DNA of 64,000 bases. It comes from Halorubrum halodurans (GTDB lineage: Archaea; Halobacteriota; Halobacteria; Halobacteriales; Haloferacaceae). Position 1 is the stretch's first letter. Every line of letters begins with the position of its first letter. The notes under the pieces were generated by a model, which was not told the origin of the DNA, ran no database searches, and saw nothing but the letters and a program-made list of their open reading frames with translations. Shown here piece by piece: positions 16,894-39,250 of the stretch. Location: contig NZ_NHPJ01000114.1 of assembly GCF_002252985.1 (NCBI RefSeq), positions 1 to 64,000 of the forward strand. Reading direction: 5' to 3'. The position numbers were made by a program, and so were the translations under genes.

Positions 16894-19800
16894 CTACTGT
16901 GAGGTCGTTTTCTCATAGTTTTCCTGAAATTCAGTAAACCACGAATCGATAAGGTCTATGTCGAGATCTTCAATAACTTCACCGTCGCTGCTCACTCGTC
17001 CGATTTTCTCGTTACGCGTCCACCCACAGACAGTGGGGCGTTCCGTGACTGTCTCTCTGAATTCAGCCTGCCGCACTAACCGCCTTGGCTCATCGCTTGT
17101 CTCACGGAGCGTCTCAATCAATTCACGGAGGAGAGGGTTCCCTGGCGCGAAGTGATGTATCGATGGGAATTCGTCGGCGCAATCTGACGAAAACGTCACA
17201 GCAACCGAATCCTCGCTTGGGGCAATAAACTGGGCAAACGTCTGCTCGCCGTCTGGCTCCGGTAGTTCCATACCGTTCCATCTCAGACAGTAGGTCGTTT
17301 CTTCGTGTTCGAACTCGCCCCCATATTCGCTGTTTGTAATGTCGATATCAATCTCAGTGACCGGAGTGAAAGTCACCCCAGTGTCAGCAAGCGTCTCATT
17401 CTCGACGAGAACAGCTTCCAGACTTGATTTTTGATACGGTGCTGGATATCGATAATCCTCTTCTCGTGTTTCCCCGATGTCCGGATGGCTGTACGACTGC
17501 CACGCGTCGAGTCTCGCCTCGTCGATAACGTCCTGTGCGACCAATGGCTCCACCGTCTCAAGGGACTCCCCTACATCCACACGGTCGCTCTGATCTTGGT
17601 TCTCTATCTGTTCGGAAAACTCACGGTCAGCTTCCGCGACTGCCTCGTGGCTCTCATCTCTATCCTTTTCCAGAGTCGCTGTTCGAATCTGTTTGCTCAC
17701 TCCAGAGAGGACAGGCTGCATCTCACCAACGACGTTCTCGAAGAGATCGATCCGGTCGTCAAGGCGCTCGTAAATGTCTGTCTCGACAGTGTCCTTGTAG
17801 CTGTAATTGAGGATTTCGACCTCATCGTATCGCTGTCCGATGCGGTCAATGCGTCCAATACGCTGCTCAACACGCATCGGATTCCACGGAAGATCGTAGT
17901 TGATGAGGGCCCCACACTCCTGAAGATTGAGGCCTTCACTGGCTGAGTCCGTACAGACGAGAATGTCCACTTGACCTTCATCGGTAGCGAATTCGCGTTT
18001 GACCCGCTCTTTCCCGACCGTTCTCCACGACTCTTCATCCGCGTCGTACATCTCTCCTCCACGGCCAGAGTAGGTAGCGACGGTTTCACCGTGTATCGAG
18101 ACGAGACTGCTGCGAATGAAATCCATCGTGTCCGTATACTGGGTGAAGATGATGACTCGGTTGTGGCCCTCGCGATCAAGTTCACCGAGGTCGTCAATCA
18201 GCTGATCGACTTTCGGATCACGATCGATCTGCCGCAGATCACTGACGAAGGATTCGAGCTCCTCGATCTCCTGTTCAAGTAGATCCACCCCTGCCTCTGT
18301 GACATTCGGAATTATCTCGGTGAGGTCTATATCCTCAAATCCACCGTCAATATCGTCCAAGCTATCGAAGTCTGTGAGGTCTTGCTCCGACAAGGAGTCC
18401 AGTAACACTTGACCGGTGTTCGAATCTGAGCCAAACGTCGGTCCTCTTGCTTGTTTCACAGCCTGCTGTTTCTGTTCGAGAACCGCTTGTTGTGTACGAA
18501 GTTTTTCAAGGCGGTGCTGGAGGCTCTGTGAAATCGCGTAGATGCTGCTAGTCAGTCGCTGCCGATACGTCGTCATTACGAACCCGATCGCCCGATTTTC
18601 GACCTCGTCAGACTGCTGCGCGAGTTTGTAGAACTTCCGTGTGTAGTCGTCGATCCGGTCGTATACGCGACGCGTCTCGTCGGTCAGCTCAATCTGGCGC
18701 TGTTCAGGGTCCCGGTTCGGGACCGTCTCGTCGAGTAGCCCAACCTGTTCGTACTTCCGGAGCGTGTCTCGTGTGTTCCGGTGGATAAGCGCGTCGACAG
18801 GCGTGGATCCGGCGAGAACATCCTGAACAACCCTCCAACCAGATTCGGAGAGATCATCGAGGGCGTTCAACCGGTCGTTCCGCCCATAGGTGAGCCATTC
18901 GTCGTCCGCTTTCCACTCCGGATACAGGAGATATTTGAGCTTCTCGTCTTCTTTCGCCTCGAACGGGTCGATGTCATGCTCATCGAGAGCCGTCTCGAAG
19001 ACCTCGATGTATCCGTCGAAGTGTTCACCGTACCCTGCGGCAAGCGTACATGCCTTTAGCACGCGTTCCTTCGCGATAGAACGTGCCTGGCTCCCATCTG
19101 CTTTGATTTCGAGTAGTCCCGCCACTTCATCGAAGATGTCGTCGGAGAGGGTTCGTTCGGCGGGCAGTCGGTCTTGATATCGGTTCTCGTCAAGCGTCGC
19201 TTGCGCTGACCAGGAGGAGGTGTCCGATTCAGATCCATCCGTATCGACGACCGTATGGATCGCCTGAGAGAGCGCCTGTCGAGTTTCGAAGAAATCGACG
19301 AACCGGTCCTCGTTGTCCCACTGTTCTGGGAGGTCGAGAAGAGCCATCAGATCGTAGAGCTCGCCAGCGTGCAGTTGCATCGGCGTCGCAGTAAGGAAGT
19401 AGTAGCACTGCGTGTGGTCCCGGAGCCGGTCGAGCATACCGTAGAAACTGCTGCCCTTCCGAGCGTTGTGGGCCTCGTCGACGATCACGGCATCCCAGAC
19501 GCCCTCACGATTGTTCGGGCCCCGTCCGCGTCCACTCGCAGGGACACTATCTCGGGTTCGGACTCGGCCGCTGTCACGAGGCGCAACTTGATCCCAACGG
19601 TCCTCGAGTCGCGCCGTGTGCCACGACATGATGACAATCGTCGGCGTCTGAGACACGGACTCTGAGTCCGTGGTCGCAGACTGTCGATTGATGAACCGCC
19701 ATATCGGACTCTCAACCCACGCGCGCTCTCGCTCCTCATCAGAGATGTTCAGTTCCGACGGAGACGGCGGCGCGTGTTCCTGCCCGAAGGCGTCGATGAA

Positions 19801-20862
19801 GGCGTACTCGTTGGTGCTGCCACGTTCGAACCGGTAGGCGTTGATATTGAATTTCTCCCATAGCTCTTCCTGCCACTGCTGTCGGAGGCTTGCCGGGACG
19901 AGGAGGAGACCGGTTTCGAGTTCGTCCGTGAGCCCAAGCCGGGAGAGCGTGAGACCGGCTTCGATGGTCTTCCCGAGGCCGACCTCGTCACAGAGGAGGA
20001 AGCTGTTCGGGTAGGTGTTCACGAGCGTGTCGGAGACGACGCGTTGGTGAGGCCAGGGGGTGATCGTACAGGCCTCTTCCGCGAGTGCGAGGCCACCGGG
20101 CGTGAGCGGACCGTCGGCGATGATGTTCGCTTTGTCCAGTTCGGTTGCTGGTGCCTCTCCTCTCGCGATCTGAATCGCTTCCTTGATCTCAGATTCCGAA
20201 TCGGGATCCTTCCAGTCGATCAGCTCTCTCTCGATGGCTTCCGGCAGGTCGTACACCTCGACGAAGGGGTGCTCGTTCGACCAGAGCTGTTCGAACGTAT
20301 CGACGTCGGCATCGACGTAGGCGTCCTCGCCATCCTCCCACGACCGATGGACTTTGAATCGCTCGTAGTTTCGCTTCCAGCCCCCGATGGTCTCGTTGAC
20401 ACTCCCTTCGAAGGAGAGCGCGTTATCATCGTCATCACGGAAGATGCCCATCTTCGGGTGGAATATCTGCCAGCTCCCTTCTCGGGGAACGGCGACCTTG
20501 ATGTGGAGTCGCTCCTCCCGGAGAAGCCGGGCGAGAAGTTGAAGATGGGCATCGAGCTGTTCGTCGTCAAGCTCTTCGAGGGAATCCCGAAGTTCGTCGC
20601 TTAGTCGTTCGAGGACCGGTTTGTCAGATTTGTACAGGTCGGTTCCGACGACGAGTCGCATCTCGCCGCCGTGTTCGAGGAGGGCATCGATTCCTTGGGA
20701 AGCAACAGCGAGGGCTGTACTCGAAAAGTATCCGGCAATACGGTCGTACTGGACGCTCCGTTCAAGCGCCGGAACGTAGAACTCGTCGACAAGATATGTC
20801 CCGCGACTGTTGGGCCTGCTTTCGTAAATCGGGGACCATGACCGATCGTTGAGATGCTGCAT
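16894..20862 (-). CDS. PLD-like/SNF2 superfamily 2 helicase of an Hma-type defence cassette
   Basis: A protein of about 1322 residues starting at ATG 20862 (a GTG at 20889 is in frame). N-terminal phospholipase-D-like part: RIAGYFSSTALAVASQGIDAL and FHPKMGIFRDDDDNALSFEG with the H-x-K core. Then a Swi2/Snf2 helicase: LCDEVGLGKTIEAG (Walker A), VIVDEAHNARKG (DEAH), FLTATPMQ, and the C-terminal lobe NLQECGALINYDLPWNP with RIGRIDRIGQ. Long coiled segments lie between the lobes. Helicases of this kind are the A component of helicase-methylase-ATPase phage-defence loci. It is transcribed last, after the DUF499, small and methylase genes, but a DUF3800 gene on the opposite strand separates it from them. 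The nuclease activity of the PLD part is inferred. Confidence 0.9.
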   Translation of the reverse strand: MQHLNDRSWSPIYESRPNSRGTYLVDEFYVPALERSVQYDRIAGYFSSTALAVASQGIDALLEHGGEMRLVVGTDLYKSDKPVLERLSDELRDSLEELDDEQLDAHLQLLARLLREERLHIKVAVPREGSWQIFHPKMGIFRDDDDNALSFEGSVNETIGGWKRNYERFKVHRSWEDGEDAYVDADVDTFEQLWSNEHPFVEVYDLPEAIERELIDWKDPDSESEIKEAIQIARGEAPATELDKANIIADGPLTPGGLALAEEACTITPWPHQRVVSDTLVNTYPNSFLLCDEVGLGKTIEAGLTLSRLGLTDELETGLLLVPASLRQQWQEELWEKFNINAYRFERGSTNEYAFIDAFGQEHAPPSPSELNISDEERERAWVESPIWRFINRQSATTDSESVSQTPTIVIMSWHTARLEDRWDQVAPRDSGRVRTRDSVPASGRGRGPNNREGVWDAVIVDEAHNARKGSSFYGMLDRLRDHTQCYYFLTATPMQLHAGELYDLMALLDLPEQWDNEDRFVDFFETRQALSQAIHTVVDTDGSESDTSSWSAQATLDENRYQDRLPAERTLSDDIFDEVAGLLEIKADGSQARSIAKERVLKACTLAAGYGEHFDGYIEVFETALDEHDIDPFEAKEDEKLKYLLYPEWKADDEWLTYGRNDRLNALDDLSESGWRVVQDVLAGSTPVDALIHRNTRDTLRKYEQVGLLDETVPNRDPEQRQIELTDETRRVYDRIDDYTRKFYKLAQQSDEVENRAIGFVMTTYRQRLTSSIYAISQSLQHRLEKLRTQQAVLEQKQQAVKQARGPTFGSDSNTGQVLLDSLSEQDLTDFDSLDDIDGGFEDIDLTEIIPNVTEAGVDLLEQEIEELESFVSDLRQIDRDPKVDQLIDDLGELDREGHNRVIIFTQYTDTMDFIRSSLVSIHGETVATYSGRGGEMYDADEESWRTVGKERVKREFATDEGQVDILVCTDSASEGLNLQECGALINYDLPWNPMRVEQRIGRIDRIGQRYDEVEILNYSYKDTVETDIYERLDDRIDLFENVVGEMQPVLSGVSKQIRTATLEKDRDESHEAVAEADREFSEQIENQDQSDRVDVGESLETVEPLVAQDVIDEARLDAWQSYSHPDIGETREEDYRYPAPYQKSSLEAVLVENETLADTGVTFTPVTEIDIDITNSEYGGEFEHEETTYCLRWNGMELPEPDGEQTFAQFIAPSEDSVAVTFSSDCADEFPSIHHFAPGNPLLRELIETLRETSDEPRRLVRQAEFRETVTERPTVCGWTRNEKIGRVSSDGEVIEDLDIDLIDSWFTEFQENYEKTTSQ

Positions 20863-21056
20863 TCTGTGAGTCGTGTATTGACTCGACACCGTTCCCCCTT
20901 AATCTTGCTCGTCACTAACAAGGTACGTCATCAGTTATTCTCGGCACTCTACAATAACAGACCCCGTATGGATACTAAATCGCGCTCCTTCCCGGATTTA
21001 CACAATAATTATATTAGTCAATACATATCTTCGAACAAGAGGCTAACCGGCCTGTA

Positions 21057-21737
21057 ATGACACACAGATCTCTCTATATTTGTGTCGACGAAAGCGGATC
21101 TGAGTCGACAGATGAGTACTTTACCGTCGCAGCGTGTTGGTTTGTCTCGTCAAATGGGCCGCGCGCTGCACTCAATGAGACACAGACTACTCTCAGGAGT
21201 CTGCTCATAGATTGTGAGGAGCTACCGAGTGGTGTTGACGAGCTAAAGGGGAAGAACCTACAGCCGACGGGAACGGACCTCCTGTTCCGGAGCTTTCAGC
21301 AGACGGTTCGAGGGGACAATACTATCGAACAGAGTATTTTGCCGTGGTCGGGATTCCCGGTTCGGTATCGAACCGTCGAATTAGACGTCTCCGTCGGCCG
21401 AAACGCACTGAGGGATCTTCACGGAGACATTCCGGTAGAAATGTCGATGCGAACACTGCTGTTGCTCTCTGTTCTCAATCCTATCCTGTACAACTCCGGA
21501 TTTACGACCGAAACTTACGATGACGTTCGAATCGTTTTGGACGGCGATATCTGGTCTCAGCCGAAGGAATCGCTCGAGGCAACGGACCGAGCCGGTGAAT
21601 TCGACTTTTCGATCAAAGATAGCAAGAAGGTACCAGGTATCCAGTTCGCGGACGTCGCAGCGAACCTTCGATTCACTGCTCGACGTGGATCCGACTTCGA
21701 TAACGCGCTCGATACGCTATCCAGTCTGGAGTTTTAG
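21057..21737 (+). CDS. DUF3800 protein (RNase H-like fold)
   Basis: A 226-residue protein with the DUF3800 markers: YICVDESGSESTDEYFTVA at the N-terminus, ELKGKNL near 62, IVLDGDIWSQ near 159 and IQFADVAANLRF near 200. The spread acidic residues fit an RNase H-like metal site, so a nuclease role is likely by family but unproven. It is the only gene of the cassette on the + strand, wedged between the helicase and the methylase, and it is divergent from the helicase. Seven bases after its stop begin two tandem 59-nt hairpins, so the hairpins would be in its 3' transcript. Confidence 0.85.
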   Translation: MTHRSLYICVDESGSESTDEYFTVAACWFVSSNGPRAALNETQTTLRSLLIDCEELPSGVDELKGKNLQPTGTDLLFRSFQQTVRGDNTIEQSILPWSGFPVRYRTVELDVSVGRNALRDLHGDIPVEMSMRTLLLLSVLNPILYNSGFTTETYDDVRIVLDGDIWSQPKESLEATDRAGEFDFSIKDSKKVPGIQFADVAANLRFTARRGSDFDNALDTLSSLEF

Positions 21738-21744
21738 AAAACTT

Positions 21745-21862
21745 CAGCGGTGCGGGAAGACTCATACCCCGTCTAGCGGAATCATCGTCTTCCGTACCCG
21801 CTGAAGCGGTGCCGAAGGCCTCATGCCCCGTCTAGCGGAATCATTGGCCTTCTTACCCGCTT
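21745..21862 (+). repeat. Two tandem 59-nt hairpin units with covarying stems (candidate structured RNA)
   Basis: Unit 1 is 21745-21803 and unit 2 is 21804-21862, with no gap. Each folds into a long imperfect hairpin: outer arm of 6 bp (AGCGG core), internal loop, inner arm of about 7 bp, then a 25-nt loop that is identical in both units except its edge bases and includes CCG-TCTAG-CGG. The units differ at 12 positions; eight of them form four compensatory pairs (unit positions 1/59, 12/48, 14/46, 16/44). That pattern supports selection for structure. It lies between the convergent DUF3800 and methylase genes. Confidence 0.9.
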
Positions 21863-21958
21863 ACACCCATACATCTATCCTATACGTGTATAAGCTTTTC
21901 CAAGAAACACCACCGACAGCGAAAAACGTAGATAGACGGCCGAAATCCCCCGCCTGCG

Positions 21959-24823
21959 TCAGAACTCTTCGAGACTCTGCTGTGACGTATCCTTGCGATC
22001 GTCCGCGAAGATGTTTGGACCGAAGTCGAGGTCGAGCACGTCACTCGTCCGACCGACAGCCAGATCGCGAGCGAGTTCCCAGTCCTCGTGGTTCTTCGGT
22101 AGTACCTGAAGCAGCGCCTTCAGCGTAGCCTTGAACTGACTGTCTGTGTCGTAGTTTCGTTCCCGGAGCCACTCGATGGTCACCGTTTCGCCCTTTTTGT
22201 CGTAGACGTGCATCGCGGCGTGGACGGCGTCCAGCGAACGGGGGAACGAGAGGTCGTCCGGGTCGATTGGCAGCCGACTCGACCGGTCTTCGGGCTTCTC
22301 GTTGATGTTCTGGACGCGACCGTCGTGCCCGCGGAGACTGATGTCGCCGCGGCTCTTACGCCAGGTCTTCGTCGAGCGCTTGATCTCGTCGATGTCGACA
22401 CCGATGCCGAGGCCGAGCTGGCGGCCGTCGTCGTAGGAGAACGTCTCGGACTCGTGGACGAGCCAGCAGAGGACGTACCACTCGGTGACGTCGTCGAGGG
22501 TGTCGACGTCCATCCCCTCCAGGTACTCGTCGACGAGGATTTGGGTCACGGCCTCGCGTGCCGTTTCAAGGGCCTTCCGCGGGGGAACTTCCTCGTCTTC
22601 GTCGTCGACAACGGGGTAGGCATCGGCGAAGACCCGGAGCGTTGGCCCGAACGCCGAGATGATGACGTCGGTCTTCGTCAGGGAGATTCCGGATTCAAGC
22701 AGGTCCCGGGCGGCCTCCTTCGCGGCCGCTCGCGTGTCGGCCTCGACGTCGCTCCAGAGGGTAGGAACCACGTTGTCGGGGTCCTTTTCTTCGTGAGGTT
22801 TGCGGCCCGTGAGGAGGAGAGTGGAATCGGCGGAGGCGCTATTCTTCATTCCTGCCCGTTGTGGCATTTCACTTGTTATTGGGTGAGTAGATGTGATTAT
22901 GAACCCGGAGTTGATTAGCGACATAGTCAGCGTATCCCAGGCATCTGTTTCCTTATGAGTGAACATTACTGTCATAACCCCACCCGGCTCAAGCACGCGA
23001 TAAAGTTCTGAAAATATCTCACTCATCTTCTGCTCATAATCCTGATTTGCCAACTCTCGCTTTGAGGTTCCTTCACCAGCAACGTCGGTAAATCGGTCCG
23101 GGTTGGCCACAGCTTCTGCGTCCTTATCCGTGAGAGATCTCGAAAATACATCCGGGAACACACCTTGGAGACACTCTCTCATCCAGACATAGAACACGTC
23201 AGATAACTCTGCGTACTGAATACTACTGTAATACGGTGGATCAGCTACAACTGCGGAGATACTATTGTTCTCTTGGGGTAAAGAACGAGCGTCACCTACA
23301 GAAAGGAATGCCGACTGTGATTCCTGAGGGAGGTAGTCAACCAGCTCAGAGTATGAGCCGTAGATTTTCTCTACACTTGATAGGAAATCAAGGCCTCCCA
23401 CAGAGATGTTATTCTCTACAAAGACACGCTTGAAAGCAAAATTCTTCCCTTTAAACATAGGATTGGGGTACCCCTTTGTGGTATCCCAATCTGCTAGCCG
23501 GATGTTTCGGTCAATAAGCTTCGTAAAGGCAAGTACAAGTAGTGTAACAATTGACTCAGCAGTCTGATCATCGTATTCCTCGCGGATAGATGGCTCAACC
23601 TCGTTGATTACTCTAACGTACTCGTAGTTACAGACTAATTGCCGAGGTGAAAAGAGGTCTCGCCACTCCTCCATTCCATAGTTTTTCGGTTCCGAGGTTT
23701 TGTTCCCATCTGGTATCGGATCAGTGAGAAAAGTAGAGAGCTCAAAGTCTGAGTTGATTCTGTCTTCAGCAGCTTCAAACGCTGCCTCATCCTCCTCAGT
23801 TGGGGATCGGAAGCCGTGACTTCCATCTTCGGTAACGTACCGAACACAGTATACCTCGTATTCAAAATCACCAGTTTGGAAGCACGCGCGCACTTGGTCA
23901 TCCTCTGTGACAACACCGCAATTTATACATTCTGCATCGCCACCGCGGGAAACAGGCCCTTCACTAGGATCAAACTCTTCTAGATCCCCTTCACTAGGAT
24001 CCACAATAACTTCATAGGTGATCGATCCATCTTCTTCAATTATTGGCTTGGAAACCACATCTATTCCATCGCTTCTTGTTCGTATCCACCACTTTGGGAC
24101 GAGTGGAATACTGGTTCCACAAGAATTACATTGGACGCTGTATGTACAGACGTAATTATCCGGTGTTTGTCCCCTCGCGTCACTTGGGAAGTAATCTTCA
24201 ATCTTGCTAGCTGCTCTACTATTGACCTCTTCCGCCCACTTGGTAACCTCTGATTCAATATCCCCAACCTCGGGTGCGTACTCGAGCATCACTTTGAGGA
24301 TCAAGGAGGGGACTGGATTGAGTTCATTAGCGTGTGTTGGAAGCCCGTAACGAAGTGACTCGTAAGGGATCACACCACCGCCCGCTGTTGGATCAAGAAC
24401 TGATGGGATTTCTCCGTCCCAATGTTGCCTCAGCGTTTCGTGTAATTCCTCCCGTTGGGCCTTAGTAGGAGAGCGAGTGAACGGCCGAGGATATTGATAG
24501 TGACTCTCTAGATTGCCACTTCGTTCATTTTCTGTGGCTTTCTTCCTTTCCACAAAACTTGCAATATCCTCATTAATCCCTTCTTTGGGCCCGATTTGCA
24601 TCCAGTCTAGTAGATCATCTGATTTCACACCTTTGGGTAGCACTGACGCCAATATAGCCAATCTGGAGGCAGGAGTCGGACGCCGTGCGAACCACGGATG
24701 GAGATAGCGATGTGGAGGAAGATACTGGGGATTTGCTTCTCGTAGATTCTCAATACCCACCGCCTTTAGTGGGAGCTTCCCTTCAATGGCGAGCGGCTTC
24801 AGGTCATCGTTGTGGTCTGTCAT
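21959..24823 (-). CDS. DUF1156 adenine/cytosine-type DNA methyltransferase (Hma-type cassette)
   Basis: A 954-residue protein. It begins with the DUF1156 signature (LPLKAVGIENLREANPQ and HPWFARRPTPASR), then VLDPTAGGGVIPYESLRYG (SAM-binding motif), ELNPVPSLILKVML, two zinc-knuckle segments (VQCNSCGTS and ECINCGVV) and the catalytic DPPYYSSIQYAELSD near residue 525, followed by LYRVLEPGGVMTVMFTH. DPPY indicates an N6-adenine or N4-cytosine methylase. In helicase-methylase-ATPase systems it probably marks host DNA as self. Its ATG overlaps the next gene upstream (24820), so it is in one operon with the small protein and DUF499. Codon use changes from GC-rich to AT-rich around 22900-24500, a mosaic feature. 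Confidence 0.92.
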   Translation of the reverse strand: MTDHNDDLKPLAIEGKLPLKAVGIENLREANPQYLPPHRYLHPWFARRPTPASRLAILASVLPKGVKSDDLLDWMQIGPKEGINEDIASFVERKKATENERSGNLESHYQYPRPFTRSPTKAQREELHETLRQHWDGEIPSVLDPTAGGGVIPYESLRYGLPTHANELNPVPSLILKVMLEYAPEVGDIESEVTKWAEEVNSRAASKIEDYFPSDARGQTPDNYVCTYSVQCNSCGTSIPLVPKWWIRTRSDGIDVVSKPIIEEDGSITYEVIVDPSEGDLEEFDPSEGPVSRGGDAECINCGVVTEDDQVRACFQTGDFEYEVYCVRYVTEDGSHGFRSPTEEDEAAFEAAEDRINSDFELSTFLTDPIPDGNKTSEPKNYGMEEWRDLFSPRQLVCNYEYVRVINEVEPSIREEYDDQTAESIVTLLVLAFTKLIDRNIRLADWDTTKGYPNPMFKGKNFAFKRVFVENNISVGGLDFLSSVEKIYGSYSELVDYLPQESQSAFLSVGDARSLPQENNSISAVVADPPYYSSIQYAELSDVFYVWMRECLQGVFPDVFSRSLTDKDAEAVANPDRFTDVAGEGTSKRELANQDYEQKMSEIFSELYRVLEPGGVMTVMFTHKETDAWDTLTMSLINSGFIITSTHPITSEMPQRAGMKNSASADSTLLLTGRKPHEEKDPDNVVPTLWSDVEADTRAAAKEAARDLLESGISLTKTDVIISAFGPTLRVFADAYPVVDDEDEEVPPRKALETAREAVTQILVDEYLEGMDVDTLDDVTEWYVLCWLVHESETFSYDDGRQLGLGIGVDIDEIKRSTKTWRKSRGDISLRGHDGRVQNINEKPEDRSSRLPIDPDDLSFPRSLDAVHAAMHVYDKKGETVTIEWLRERNYDTDSQFKATLKALLQVLPKNHEDWELARDLAVGRTSDVLDLDFGPNIFADDRKDTSQQSLEEF

Positions 24824-25440
24824 AAGTGGTCAGTCAGCAGTGTCCGCAGGGCTTTTTCGCCGTTCGGACTGGACGGGGACCGACACTTCGCATGCCAGTA
24901 GTAACACTCCTCGTCGCCCATGTGAGCGACGCCGCGACAGAGGGCACGCATCCTATCGACGCGCTGGAGCGGCTTGATGCCGCGGAACGCGAGTGCCAGC
25001 CGGACGCCGACAGTCTCCGGGAGGAAGAGGTCGCCGACACCGCTGGTGGTCACGGCTGACGGATCGAGTTCCGCGCCGTCGACGGTCTCCTCGATGAGCG
25101 GGGAGAGCGCTCGGAAGCGTCCGCCGTCGATACGCGCGACCTTCACCGCAGTCCACCCGTCCCAGTCCCAACGTGTCGCCTCCTCGGTCGTGGAGTCCTC
25201 GAAGACCGCTTCGAAGGATTCGACGCTGAGCGAGCGCCCACGGCGTTCGAGCCGGACGCGACGCGCGGCCGCCTGATCCTCGGGAAGGAGTTCGTACAGC
25301 GTCACCTCGCCGCCGTTCGAGCCTTCGCAGCGTACCATCGCGAACGTCGGCCGTCCGCCGTAGACGCTGCTCCCGAACGAGGACACGGGAGCGTCCTCGG
25401 TCGGCGTCCCGGCGTGCGGCGAATCGAATTCGGTAGTCAT
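24820..25440 (-). CDS. Small conserved component of the Hma-type cassette
   Basis: A 206-residue protein overlapping both neighbours by 4 bp, so tightly coupled to DUF499 upstream and the methylase downstream. Recognisable pieces: FAMVRCEGSNGGEVTLYEL, a central RWDWDGWTAVKVARIDGGRF segment, and a C-terminal helix pair LALAFRGIKPLQRVDRMRAL followed by MGDEECYYWHAKC. Short proteins occur at this place in DUF499/DUF1156 loci (DUF3780 or related families); I cannot assign it to one. No catalytic motif seen. Probably a structural or adaptor subunit. Confidence 0.7.
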   Translation of the reverse strand: MTTEFDSPHAGTPTEDAPVSSFGSSVYGGRPTFAMVRCEGSNGGEVTLYELLPEDQAAARRVRLERRGRSLSVESFEAVFEDSTTEEATRWDWDGWTAVKVARIDGGRFRALSPLIEETVDGAELDPSAVTTSGVGDLFLPETVGVRLALAFRGIKPLQRVDRMRALCRGVAHMGDEECYYWHAKCRSPSSPNGEKALRTLLTDHL

Positions 25441-28400
25441 TGAGTGGCCTCGGGGGGTACTTCGACCGGTCCTCTGGCTTGAACCTTCACGTCGATGTTG
25501 GTCTGGCCGAGCCCCGCCTGTAACTCTGCGAGCACGTCGTCCTCGTCGTCGGTTATGGCTTCGGGTTCGTCGAGATCGACGCGGAACTTCAGCGTGACGT
25601 TGATCGACTCGCCGAACGGGTCGGGCTGGTTCGTCACGCGGGAGAAGTCGTCGAGTCCGCCTTGGTAGCTCGCGCTGTAGCTCGTCCCAGTCGACGTCTT
25701 CACGTCGTAACTCATCCGAACCGAGACCGCGTCCGCACGGTCGGTGAATGCGTCGCGCTGAGCGATGAACGACCCCTTCGAGAGTCGGTCCTCGCCCATT
25801 ACTTCGACAGTGACCTGCGAGACACCAGGTGTTCCGTCTGAAGGCGCTTTCGAGAGTGCGTGGGTTCGCACTTCGTTGAACGCGCGGGAGGCGGCCATCT
25901 GACTGGTCGCGGTGTCCCAGCCCGACGGTCGCGCGCAGTCGGGACAGATACCCTGGGCGTTGAGCTCGCTCTCGGCGTACTCCTTGCCGCAGCTCTGACA
26001 GCGAGCTTTCTCGATAGTCTTTTTGTGGTCCTCGCAGTACGCCGGCCCGTCGCCGGAGGGCTCAACCATCGTCGTACAACCGTCTTCGGCGCACTGGACT
26101 TTTTCCGCTTCGGGCGGCCGAATCGAGTCGTGGTGAACGTCGAGAAGGGACTCGATACCCGTGTAGACCACGTACTCGTTCCCGATCTTCACGTCGGTGT
26201 CCCTGATCGACGTCCGAACGTCCGGCGACTCCGCAAGGGGGCTTCGCTTCCGCCAGTTCTCGGGATGATCGTCGGCGTCGGCGTCCCAGTACACGGTTTC
26301 GGACTCCGCGTCCCAGTAGGTGTATCCACCGTCGTCGACCATCTTCGCGACGGTCTTCCGGAGGGGCTTCGTGCTCAGGAGGTAGGGGAGCCCCGGCTTC
26401 TTCGCGAACTGCTCGACGAGCTGCTGGGTCGTCATCGAGTCCTGGGTCTGCTGCCAGAGCTTCTGTTTGAAGAACGCGATGCCCTTGGGTCCGGCGTCAG
26501 CCCGAATCAGCCGGTCGTCGAGCGTCTCTTCGACAGCGTTGACGAGCGACGTCCCTCCGTTGGCCTCGGTCGCGTTGATAGTGATGTGCGTGAGGCCGTC
26601 GCGGTCAACGTAGTAGAGGTGGCGGTACACCCCGCGGACGAGCTCGCCGAGTAGGCCGTACTTCGTCTTCCGACGCTCCTTCAGGTCTTCAATCTGGTCG
26701 GGAGAAAGATCGGCGGTCTGTTGGCTGTCGTCGAGCAGCGCCTCGATGGCCTCGAGGTGGCGGGCCTCGTCGACCGCACTCTTCACACGTTCGTCGTCGG
26801 GTGCGAGAAATAGGACGTAGTTTTTGTAAACGCGACTTTGGACGTCCCCGCCCTGTTTCGACGCCGACTTCTGATAAAGTGACTGGACCTTCTCCGGGAC
26901 CGCCTGCGGGTTTGAATCGTCGTTGAGCAGCTCTTCGGTGACCGGAGCCGTATCCATGTGCATAACCGCGAGCTGAGGCGTCGACGCCTTGTCCGGAAGG
27001 TCGGCCGGCGACTCCGGATGCGACACCGGCTCGAACGCTCCGGTCCCTGTCTCGCTGTCGAGCCGAGCTTCGAACCGAGAGCGCGCCTGCGCGTCGGGGG
27101 TGTTGTCGACCCGCTGGTCGATGATACGAATGAGGTTCGGGTCAGACTTGAACCGGACGCGCTCCTCGTCGTAGAGGTAGTAACACGCGACGCCCATGTC
27201 GCCTCCGGCCAGCGCGTCCAGTGCGGAGTCGTAGTTGTCGAAGCGGATGTCGGGATGACCGAGCGCCGCGTTCATTTCCGCACGTGTGAGTCCGGTTGCC
27301 TGCTCGCCGTACGCGAGACTATGCCAGAGAACGGTTGTCGTCAGGTGGCTTCCGAGCGGTGGAATCCCTTTCTCCGTCCACTTACGGTCCTCGAGTTGTG
27401 CGTGGGCGTTCTCGTCCTCACTGTAGATGTCAGCAGTGACGGCAGAGCTGAGATCGACGAACTCGAACAGCGTCTCTCGGAGGGTCCCATCGATGCTGCC
27501 GCCCGGAGCATCGTCTGCCGGCGTCAGATCGTACAGCCGGATCCAGTGTCGGTCGTAGTTGGCCGGCTGGTGGTTCCAAAGGTAGAATACGGCCCGAGCG
27601 AGGAGCTTCAGTGCGCCACGGGTGCGCTGGAACTTCGGGATCGTGTCGATCTTCTCGGTGAGGGTATCGATGATCGTCGGATGGAACGGGTACTCTCGTT
27701 CAAGCCGGTCGACGAAGCTCGCGTCAGTAGCTTCCTGTGGGAACTGGCGGTCTCCACCGGTGTAGAACTGAAAGTATGACTCTGCGACAGACTGAGCTTG
27801 GTCATGGTCAATCTCCTCGAAGAGCCTGTGCTGAAGGACTTGTCCCACCTCCGTTTCGGAAGTAGGCGTGACCGTCTTGTGTTGTCGACGGCCGATTTGA
27901 TTGAGTTCGTCAACGAGCGTTCGGATCTCGTCAGCCTCCTCTTCGAAGGCCGTGTCAGCGATACTGTACACGACGGTAACGTCGTCCGTCTCCGACGCCG
28001 TCTCAAGGAGTGATAGAACGAAGCTCAGCGTCTGGCTTGCTAGCGTTGCGTTTCCGACTTCGACGGCGGACGCTGCTTCGAGATACGCCGCAATTTCGTC
28101 GATGAGGACGAGCGACGCCCCGTCGCCGATCTCGAACAGTCCTTTCAGCGTATTTCCGCCCGGGGCGTTTCGGTCTTGATCGTACTCTTTGATGTACTCG
28201 TACCCCTCCAACCCGTAGAGCTGATAAGCGATCTCCCCCCACATGGTCCGGGTGTTCGGGGCGTCCGGATCCGTGCGGTCACTACGTGTGTTTCGGCCGT
28301 CGACGTGCCCGCCGACGAAGACCGCAGTGTCGACGTCAAGCTCCCCGGCGACGGCAGCATCATGGTAGGACGAAGCGAGTCCCTCATCGCCGTCGTTGAG

Positions 28401-28769
28401 ATGATCTTCGAGATTCTCTATGTCACCCGGATGGGTAGCAAGGTGATACGAAGCGATCAAGTCGTGTGTCTTACCCCCTCCGAACCGGGTGTCAAGACAG
28501 AGAATGCTGTTCGAATACCCCCCACTATCATGTCCACCACTAGCAAGAAATCGCCCGGTAAGGTTGCTGAGAAGCGTCTGTAACCCGTCGGTTGGGTAAG
28601 TCATATCGAAGAAGAGGTCCCCATTGCGATATACTGGAGCGGCCTCGTCAGGAGAGTGTGCGACCGTAGCTAGACTAGCTGCAAATTGGTCTTCCTGAAG
28701 CGTTCCGTCGAGGACATCATTTCGCGGTGTACAATTGTCGAATAGCGTTGGAAATTCTGCGTTACTCAT
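25437..28769 (-). CDS. DUF499 ATPase (Hma-type cassette)
   Basis: A 1110-residue ATPase, first gene of the operon. Walker A is LDTRFGGGKTHDL near residue 113, Walker B is LVLIDEIAAYLEA near 218, followed by a TVVYSIADTAFEEEADEI sensor region, all typical of DUF499. A zinc-binding part lies at about 900-960 with several Cys pairs (CAEDGC, YCEDH, CQSCGKEY, CPDC). The last 100 residues form a separate domain. DUF499 proteins accompany DUF1156 methylases and large helicases in archaeal and bacterial defence islands. The promoter must lie in 28770-28900. ATP-driven remodelling of the methylase or helicase complex is an inference. Confidence 0.92.
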   Translation of the reverse strand: MSNAEFPTLFDNCTPRNDVLDGTLQEDQFAASLATVAHSPDEAAPVYRNGDLFFDMTYPTDGLQTLLSNLTGRFLASGGHDSGGYSNSILCLDTRFGGGKTHDLIASYHLATHPGDIENLEDHLNDGDEGLASSYHDAAVAGELDVDTAVFVGGHVDGRNTRSDRTDPDAPNTRTMWGEIAYQLYGLEGYEYIKEYDQDRNAPGGNTLKGLFEIGDGASLVLIDEIAAYLEAASAVEVGNATLASQTLSFVLSLLETASETDDVTVVYSIADTAFEEEADEIRTLVDELNQIGRRQHKTVTPTSETEVGQVLQHRLFEEIDHDQAQSVAESYFQFYTGGDRQFPQEATDASFVDRLEREYPFHPTIIDTLTEKIDTIPKFQRTRGALKLLARAVFYLWNHQPANYDRHWIRLYDLTPADDAPGGSIDGTLRETLFEFVDLSSAVTADIYSEDENAHAQLEDRKWTEKGIPPLGSHLTTTVLWHSLAYGEQATGLTRAEMNAALGHPDIRFDNYDSALDALAGGDMGVACYYLYDEERVRFKSDPNLIRIIDQRVDNTPDAQARSRFEARLDSETGTGAFEPVSHPESPADLPDKASTPQLAVMHMDTAPVTEELLNDDSNPQAVPEKVQSLYQKSASKQGGDVQSRVYKNYVLFLAPDDERVKSAVDEARHLEAIEALLDDSQQTADLSPDQIEDLKERRKTKYGLLGELVRGVYRHLYYVDRDGLTHITINATEANGGTSLVNAVEETLDDRLIRADAGPKGIAFFKQKLWQQTQDSMTTQQLVEQFAKKPGLPYLLSTKPLRKTVAKMVDDGGYTYWDAESETVYWDADADDHPENWRKRSPLAESPDVRTSIRDTDVKIGNEYVVYTGIESLLDVHHDSIRPPEAEKVQCAEDGCTTMVEPSGDGPAYCEDHKKTIEKARCQSCGKEYAESELNAQGICPDCARPSGWDTATSQMAASRAFNEVRTHALSKAPSDGTPGVSQVTVEVMGEDRLSKGSFIAQRDAFTDRADAVSVRMSYDVKTSTGTSYSASYQGGLDDFSRVTNQPDPFGESINVTLKFRVDLDEPEAITDDEDDVLAELQAGLGQTNIDVKVQARGPVEVPPEATQ

Positions 28770-37813: not shown

Positions 37814-39250
37814 TGACATCCTCCTCGCCGTAAACGGCGAGGCTTCCCGTACCGCAGGTGGGATATTTGCCGGTCTACGACACGACCTGTTCTCTCGTAT
37901 GAAACGTCCCGCTCTCGCGGTCGAACAAGTGTGTCGATGGCTGTGCCACACAGCCGTTACTCCTATCCTCGCCGTGAGGACTCGGAGTTATCTTCTGACG
38001 CATATTCTCTGCCCCGTTACAATCCGCGTTAGCTACTAACTCACACGACGAGCAGACGTACAGGCCACGTTCGACACGGTTCGATTTCGTGTCGTCTCCA
38101 CATCGTGAACACGTTTTTGAAGTGTTCCACTCGTTCTCTTTCAGTACCTCAACACCCCGCATCTCGCCTTTGTATTCGAGGTACTGGTAGATGCGGTCGA
38201 ATGCCCACGAGTGTAACTTCTTGTTGCCGGTTTTACCCCAGTCTGACGCTCGCACGTCTTCAGGCCAACTCACCGCGAGCGTACCGACACCGCGTTCGAC
38301 ACACTCCGTGATGATGGCGTCCGTCAGCGTGTGGTAGAAGTGTGTCTCACGTTCGGAGAGTTTCCGACGCGCCCACATCGACTTCTCTGACGGGCCGTTC
38401 TCTCCCTCGGTGTCGTACTCAGCTCTAGTAAAGTATTGTTTGTCTTCTTTGAGCGAGTTGCCGGGGTACAACACGTATTCGTCGGGGAACGCGACCGTGG
38501 CGATGTTGGTGATGCCAAGGTCGATCCCTGCGACATCGTCGCCAGCCGCATCCGCTGTTTCGAGCTCGACTTTACAGACGAAGTGGAGTTCCCAACTCTC
38601 ACCAGTCCAGACGGCACGAATGTTCTGTACGCTGTTGACTTCTGAGAGATTAACGTCTGGTCGAGTCTGGTACTCACAGAGCAGGAAATCCGAGAAGTGT
38701 TCTTTCAGATTAGAGCCTTTCGAGAGCCGGACCCGGTTGTTCTCAGGGTCGTGTTTGAACCCGTCTTCTTTGAACGTCACCGTGCTCTTTGGTCGAGTGT
38801 CGCCGTGTTTGCGGTAGCCGGGCGGATTCGCCTCACTGGAGTTGTGTCGCAAGTCGAACCACGACTGGAAAGCGTCAGAAAGTTCTTCGATGACTTTCTG
38901 ACTGGATTGTGCGTTCAAATCTTTCCAGCACGACTGGTTTTTCATGTACGATTTCAGCACACTACCGTTTGGTATCTCGCCGGTTGCGTCCCAGATACGG
39001 TCGGCTGTCCATCGTGCGACGTTCCAGATTTTCGAGGCAGAGTCTCCGAGCGAATCAAGACCATCACAGACCTGTTGGTGGTTCTGGATGGAACCAACGT
39101 AGGTGCGTGTGGCCTTAATCGCCATACATAGACTATGTAGACAAACTAACTTAATGGTGTGGATGTGCGTGGAATATCCAACCTGCCGTTCGTGATGGAT
39201 TGGGTCAGCGTTGTCGGATTCACTCCCGGAGTAAACGCCGGGGTTCTCTC
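37813..39250 (-). mobile_element. IS1341-type element (tnpB only)
   Basis: Contains one tnpB and no tnpA. The right end, read on the minus strand, is a hairpin CTCGCCG-TTTA-CGGCGAG ending in GAGGATGTCA at about 37814; the same end occurs on the element at 60645-62252. The left end has a hairpin (CCCGG/CCGGG) around 39224-39243 next to GTGAATC, also shared with that element. Boundaries are estimates within a few bases. Confidence 0.75.
37875..39125 (-). CDS. tnpB: TnpB RNA-guided nuclease (IS1341 type)
   Basis: A 416-residue TnpB. The RuvC-like parts are GIDLGITNIATVAF (first Asp), SWPEDVRASDWG (Glu) and ANADCNGAENMR (last Asp); the zinc ribbon is TCSRCGDD ... YVCSSCELV. The N-terminus is MAIKATRTYVGSIQNHQQV, so the ATG at 39125 was chosen over longer frames. 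TnpB cuts DNA using an RNA from the element's right end as guide. Here that guide would start just past 37814, in the 3' end of the hydrolase gene. No tnpA is nearby, so movement needs a transposase in trans. Confidence 0.92.
   Translation of the reverse strand: MAIKATRTYVGSIQNHQQVCDGLDSLGDSASKIWNVARWTADRIWDATGEIPNGSVLKSYMKNQSCWKDLNAQSSQKVIEELSDAFQSWFDLRHNSSEANPPGYRKHGDTRPKSTVTFKEDGFKHDPENNRVRLSKGSNLKEHFSDFLLCEYQTRPDVNLSEVNSVQNIRAVWTGESWELHFVCKVELETADAAGDDVAGIDLGITNIATVAFPDEYVLYPGNSLKEDKQYFTRAEYDTEGENGPSEKSMWARRKLSERETHFYHTLTDAIITECVERGVGTLAVSWPEDVRASDWGKTGNKKLHSWAFDRIYQYLEYKGEMRGVEVLKENEWNTSKTCSRCGDDTKSNRVERGLYVCSSCELVANADCNGAENMRQKITPSPHGEDRSNGCVAQPSTHLFDRESGTFHTREQVVS

Follow-up and report, generated by a model that had tools for sequence, protein, structure and literature searches.

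A predicted small RNA gene with a conserved hairpin core converges on a DUF3800 nuclease-like gene in Halobacteriales

In the stretch of Halorubrum halodurans DNA analysed here (64,000 nt of contig NZ_NHPJ01000114.1, hereafter the window), two tandem hairpins immediately downstream of a DUF3800 gene are predicted to constitute a small RNA gene on the minus strand, which converges with the DUF3800 gene and ends at its stop codon. Read directly from the letters of the window, the hairpins are two adjacent 59-nt units (21745-21803 and 21804-21862) differing at 12 of the 59 positions (1, 10, 12, 14, 16, 22, 42, 44, 46, 48, 50 and 59), with compensated changes at the pairs 1/59, 12/48, 14/46 and 16/44, exactly as the first-pass annotation had described them. 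The inner CCG-TCTAG-CGG mini-hairpin that it reported is present, and its near-invariant 25-nt loop likewise stands, containing one or two differences depending on the limits chosen. A repeat search of the units returned 82% identity with a period of 59 nt, and the two-unit array occurs a single time in its own genome. Folded singly, the units have z-scores of -5.95 and -4.12, and folded together -5.55, with none of 200 shuffles being as stable.

Haloarchaeal genomes, searched with the DUF3800 protein and with a covariance model, the latter a check proposed in the first-pass annotation, gave homologous units in which the arm changes are paired; 37 units from 27 haloarchaeal loci, some directly following DUF3800 and others located elsewhere, could be aligned. 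Across the 37 units, a structure of 21 base pairs has 82.6% paired cells versus a shuffle mean of 71.0%, 16 pairs with two-sided changes versus a mean of 11.9, and 106 two-sided pair-keeping cells versus a mean of 36.3. None of 500 shuffles reached any of the three scores, a count that overstates significance because the shuffles ignore the kinship of the related sequences, so that more weight is carried by the slid controls, which scored far lower. The structure is strongly selected, which bears out the initial claim of selection on a fold. The family consists of a lower helix, an upper helix, a purine-rich 4x4 internal loop (RAUG/AUGA) and an apical CCC(U/G)..(A/C)GGG hairpin, with the consensus core C-RAUG-A-UCCC(U/G)-CNNUGA-(A/C)GGGG-N-AUGA-G. 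The last pair of the apical hairpin switches between U-A and G-C, and the 4x4 internal loop below it is nearly invariant. In the window, the cores (alignment A3) are C-AAUG-A-UUCCG-CUAGA-CGGGG-C-AUGA-G for unit 1 (21820..21846, minus strand) and C-GAUG-A-UUCCG-CUAGA-CGGGG-U-AUGA-G for unit 2 (21761..21787, minus strand).

The core and the arms evolve differently at loci with tandem units. The core distance is 2.5% within a locus versus 17.5% between loci, whereas the arms are nearly as distant within a tandem locus (50%) as between loci (56%); in 7 of 10 tandems both units have the same apical loop, versus 12% of random pairs. Since the cores of one locus stay matched in sequence and the arms need only remain paired, a cognate factor reading the core is suggested by these sequence comparisons. 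RNA and protein distances correlate as well (Mantel r 0.42-0.50), but the correlation extends to the arms as well as to the core and thus reflects co-inheritance and is no proof of contact. We rejected a guide-RNA reading, given that the variable arms are self-complementary and leave no variable unpaired guide. An archaeal box C/D RNA was likewise rejected: its core contains RAUGAUCCC and NAUGAG, which do not supply the two boxes that form a k-turn (C, RUGAUGA; D, CUGA). A match to sR39 reached 11.3 bits, far under the gathering score.

The assignment to the minus strand is favoured by four lines of evidence, namely fold stability, asymmetry of G.U pairs, the position of a TATA-like box and a U-tract. 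Of 34 units, 31 fold more stably on the minus strand (means of -30.3 kcal/mol on the minus and -25.5 kcal/mol on the plus strand), and the consensus energy of one and the same alignment is -14.29 kcal/mol on the minus strand versus -2.54 kcal/mol on the plus strand. When registers are set by Watson-Crick pairing alone, the lower helix contains 24 G.U versus 9 A.C cells as read on the minus strand, and a U.G pair of the inner helix, which would read A.C on the other strand, is nearly invariant (35 of 37 units). A TATA-like box lies 39-50 nt before the core at 13 of 19 DUF3800-linked loci, whereas six other 11-nt intervals contain it at none of the 19; a start site 25-30 nt past this box, as expected, would fall at the base of the first hairpin. 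A TTT or U-rich stretch follows soon after the last unit at 14 of 19 linked loci and at 3 of 8 orphans. The first-pass annotation had placed the RNA on the DUF3800-sense strand, a placement that these results do not support, and the initial model R1 with its alignment A1, built on that strand, was replaced by the minus-strand model R2 and alignment A3. Of the two possibilities named in that annotation, an RNA or a folded DNA, the strand-asymmetric G.U pairs and the promoter-like box back the RNA. In the window, the predicted gene of ~127 nt (21738..21864, minus strand) would start near 21864, 27 nt past a TATA-like box (CTTATAC, 21888..21894, minus strand) preceded just upstream by a purine-rich BRE-like GAAAAG (21895-21900, minus strand). 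It would comprise a promoter-proximal first unit (21803..21863, minus strand; R2 match of 54.0 bits, E 6e-12) and a second unit (21744..21804, minus strand; 58.2 bits, E 3.2e-13), and end in a likely terminator, UUUU (21738..21741, minus strand), which abuts the DUF3800 stop codon. For the family as a whole, RNA lengths of ~60 nt (one unit) or ~125 nt (two units) are predicted.

The DUF3800 protein of the window (21057..21737, plus strand; 226 aa; Pfam PF12686, E 2.5e-7) is a predicted RNase HII-like nuclease. Its AlphaFold2 model has a mean pLDDT of 93.2, and the top Foldseek matches are RNases H2/HII (E 2.9e-6, probability 1.00, TM about 0.5); a PDB sequence search with the DUF3800 profile gave no match. 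D11, E12, E62, K64, D162 and D199 are invariant in 21 aligned DUF3800 sequences, and the model has a type 2 RNase H fold with an Asp-Glu-Asp-Asp set of carboxylates (D11, E12, D162 and D199) assigned by sequence conservation. RNase HII/RNase H2A is thus the best fold match, sharing the adjacent Asp-Glu in the first strand and the later Asp residues, but the resemblance is moderate (TM about 0.5, 11-15% identity), and the DUF3800 protein differs in its conserved ELKG and QxADxxA motifs and in being linked to an RNA of its own. Nuclease activity is plausible on the strength of this model. The literature treats DUF3800 as an accessory nuclease with an RNase H fold at some CRISPR loci, where it accompanies Cas12a2 and type VI-F/V-A2 loci with a suggested role in interference or in crRNA biogenesis or decay (PMC10910872, PMC12669027), and has previously been found alongside putative ncRNAs (PMC10910872).

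A search for the DUF3800 protein over 392 Halobacteriales genomes yielded 22 loci in 21 genomes, two pieces of one broken gene being counted as one locus. At 20 of the 22 homologues, one or two homologous units lie immediately 3' of the stop codon (one cut by a contig end), and the position relative to DUF3800 is the same in all linked loci; the RNA is closely linked to one DUF3800 clade. The nearest relative, G251, has 45% protein identity and two units at the same 59-nt spacing. The remaining two homologues have no R2 match, and both carry another hairpin and an AT-rich promoter-like sequence at that place. In a different DUF3800 clade, the sequence past the stop codon is conserved between loci L096 and L097 (TGATTGGCCTYCCACCC...CTCACGGCGTTATCGGT); it folds when read from the opposite strand (z of -3.4 and -2.1) and is perhaps another DUF3800-linked RNA. 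In G183 (L114), DUF3800 is apparently split over two frames, and in G121 (L020/L113), the matched DUF3800 stretch contains one in-frame TAG, yet the RNA is intact in both. Plasmid NZ_CP146629.1 of Halobacterium salinarum carries DUF3800 together with the RNA (76 bits). In a phylum-wide sample of 295 genomes, matches were confined to haloarchaea, and among the genomes searched here the family was found in Halobacteriales only. A DNA pattern scan gave mostly chance hits among the matches listed, but recovered Halorussus halobius and a Salinibaculum plasmid. Back-translated patterns of the protein, too specific for this purpose, matched no relative in GTDB contigs. Weaker matches, with E above 0.003, were left out, and R1 matches in G141 and G241 were dropped as chance, being located inside coding sequence.

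In the window, the DUF3800-RNA module is flanked by the helicase gene and the methylase gene of a defence operon of the Hma-like type, which is encoded on the minus strand and includes a HmaA/DrmD-like PLD-helicase (16894..20889), a HmaB-like DNA methylase with DUF1156 (21959..24823), a DUF7680 protein (24820..25440) and a HmaC-like ATPase with DUF499 (25437..28769). In six relatives with the same methylase, the helicase gene follows directly (G033, G069, G066, G126, G142 and G044), and in G004 and G115 the methylase-helicase junction holds an unrelated gene of 312-323 aa. As the junction is empty or otherwise filled in relatives, the module is one occupant of a variable slot in the defence operon; it lies inside an Hma-like operon, yet is an exchangeable insert, with other copies of the module located elsewhere. 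The 312-323-aa gene that fills this slot at loci L313 and L316 carries the sequence MRAFGDLTAVHLALWE... Elsewhere in the window, positions 37822-37993 on the minus strand match the Rfam family sot0042 (sense overlapping transcript RNA) with 93.6 bits.

That the units always sit behind DUF3800, as the first-pass annotation had envisaged, holds for most homologues but is too strong as a rule: the RNA occurs without DUF3800 at no fewer than eight chromosomal loci found by the covariance-model search and at four virus/plasmid-type loci. Three of the DUF3800-less loci adjoin ahcY, and other genomes hold DUF3800 together with the units beside ahcY; furthermore, G299 has one unit where G251 has the full module. 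These cases fit a history in which the protein gene was lost while its RNA stayed in place. Two unlinked copies, L088 and L091, have decayed cores, and some unlinked copies are located near recombinase genes. The virus/plasmid-type copies lie in two IMG/VR contigs (L237 and L248), in a stretch of a Salinibaculum megaplasmid (L164) and in a duplicated 10-kb stretch of G469 (L303 and L304). The viral nature of L237 and L248 is based on the collection and on genes for terminase, clamp loader and homing endonuclease, and a viral nature is suggested for L164 and L303. At all four loci, a tRNA gene lies on the same strand as the RNA, at a distance of 4 nt (L237), 76 nt (L164), 197 nt (L303) and 337 nt (L248), and the cores match a DUF3800-linked core of a chromosome except at 0 to 3 positions. 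The phage and viral collections searched yielded no relative of DUF3800. Just upstream of the RNA, a further conserved sequence (GTCAGAAAAAGCTYGCAAGG...) is common to L237 (720-798, plus strand) and L248 (the stretch before 3018, minus strand); it contains what looks like a helix with compensated changes, GCTATG/CATAGC versus GTTGAG/CTCAAC. The L303 and L304 copies in G469 share at least 9,990 identical bases at two places 72 kb apart, and the duplicated stretch includes the RNA and a tRNA gene that seemingly contains an intron.

Comparison of the window units, on both strands, with a set of 4227 Rfam models, including whichever of the motifs DUF3800-I to -XI the set contains, gave no match at the gathering threshold. 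Searches with looser limits (E up to 10, 3 and 1) in the surroundings of these units and of those at 21 related loci gave none either. The initial statement that no RNA family has this shape therefore stands for Rfam, but RNAs beside DUF3800 genes had already been described: DUF3800-I (RF02969), DUF3800-IX (RF02968) and their sister motifs are likewise structured RNAs next to DUF3800, of unknown function. With a structured RNA next to the DUF3800 gene at 20 of the 22 homologues, the archaeal RNA belongs to this wider, unexplained kind, and as an archaeal variant it is new, with no match among the Rfam families tested. It differs from the Rfam DUF3800 motifs in its restriction here to Halobacteriales, its single or tandem units, its convergent promoter and its virus-type copies. 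In pairing a predicted nuclease with a neighbouring small RNA that is structured and at times tandemly repeated, the module also recalls type III toxin-antitoxin systems (ToxIN, AbiQ, CptIN and TenpIN). However, in type III systems the RNA lies upstream in one operon with a terminator in between, whereas here the genes converge from separate promoters; the predicted fold is RNase HII-like instead of that of ToxN/AbiQ or CptN/TenpN; and the RNA consists of one or two hairpins of 59-62 nt instead of pseudoknot repeats of 34-36 nt. Because gene order and fold differ, the module is not a member of type III. The viral copies nevertheless parallel the pseudo-ToxI repeats carried by phage TE (PMC3475682, PMC5086642).

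The reading we favour, with a probability of about 0.47, is a convergent RNA-nuclease module that works in a type III-like manner, the RNA core binding and restraining the DUF3800 nuclease and the viral copies acting as decoys. The RNA would be transcribed by itself from the minus strand and fold, and its conserved core, which partner recognition is suggested to target, would be bound by the cognate DUF3800 nuclease. By analogy with the restraint of ToxN by ToxI, the bound RNA would keep the nuclease inactive, so that the RNA may be the antidote half of a toxin-antitoxin-like pair; if the RNA were lost, as might happen when a virus shuts down transcription in its host, the nuclease would be released, and viral or plasmid RNA copies without DUF3800 would keep it blocked. 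Inhibition is favoured because the RNA is often found alone and the nuclease rarely without a hairpin RNA, and because of the defence setting and the phage TE parallel. The converging genes and the moderate fold match speak against a type III-like reading, the results are compatible with an inhibitor, a cofactor or a substrate, and the viral copies could have another purpose. The complete scenario, in which an RNase HII-like DUF3800 nuclease is checked by the convergent RNA through its core and haloviruses counter with copies carrying a host-like core in their tRNA clusters, is rather unlikely when taken as a whole.

The main rival makes the RNA a functional component of a ribonucleoprotein effector: DUF3800 would require it as a cofactor, as a scaffold or as a substrate to be processed, for instance in the recognition of foreign nucleic acid. 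The core and the protein travel together, and DUF3800 accompanies Cas12a2 and type VI-F/V-A2 CRISPR loci (PMC10910872, PMC12669027), but an antidote or decoy explains more easily why the RNA often persists without DUF3800, and the self-complementary arms offer no variable guide, which leaves an effector unlikely. Antisense pairing with the 3' untranslated region of the DUF3800 mRNA, lowering expression in a type I-like manner, would suit an RNA that directly adjoins the stop codon and is complementary over its whole length to any mRNA that reads through. Such pairing would need neither the conserved internal loop nor the compensatory arm changes, the arms of tandem units diverge while the core is kept, viral copies could pair via the core only, and a 226-aa nuclease-like protein is unlike type I toxins, which are usually small hydrophobic peptides; we regard this explanation as quite unlikely. 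Copies without DUF3800, as well as the four virus/plasmid-type loci within ~340 nt of a same-strand tRNA gene, could indicate a primarily regulatory or tRNA-linked RNA of host or virus with its own function, which DUF3800 processes or degrades as an accessory. Most intact chromosomal copies found are, however, DUF3800-linked, and the decay of at least two unlinked copies (the core of L088, and L091) suggests that the constraint depends on DUF3800, making this very unlikely. Finally, palindromic hairpins between convergent genes and near U-tracts, some of whose unlinked copies are near recombinase genes, might be merely a bidirectional terminator, an mRNA-end stabiliser or a mobile palindrome (REP-like or a transposon end). 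The near-invariant unpaired core, the strand-asymmetric G.U pairs, the positioned promoter, the occurrence at one place in the genome and the constant placement with respect to DUF3800 at every linked locus render this highly improbable; strand asymmetry and the promoter led us to reject the transposon-end variant.

The RNAs recorded so far next to DUF3800 genes lack an assigned function, and for one of them the strand, likely ends and core are now predicted, while its DUF3800 partner protein gains a specific enzymatic hypothesis. The RNA copies in viral contigs hint at the purpose of the RNA-DUF3800 pair, and, the module consisting of small parts, laboratory strains of haloarchaea allow a direct test. 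Should the type III-like reading be true, archaea would also have RNA-controlled toxin systems, in a form whose fold and gene order are new; an RNA-checked nuclease with viral counter-copies would, if true, represent a new class of archaeal defence and provide a function for DUF3800-linked RNAs in general.
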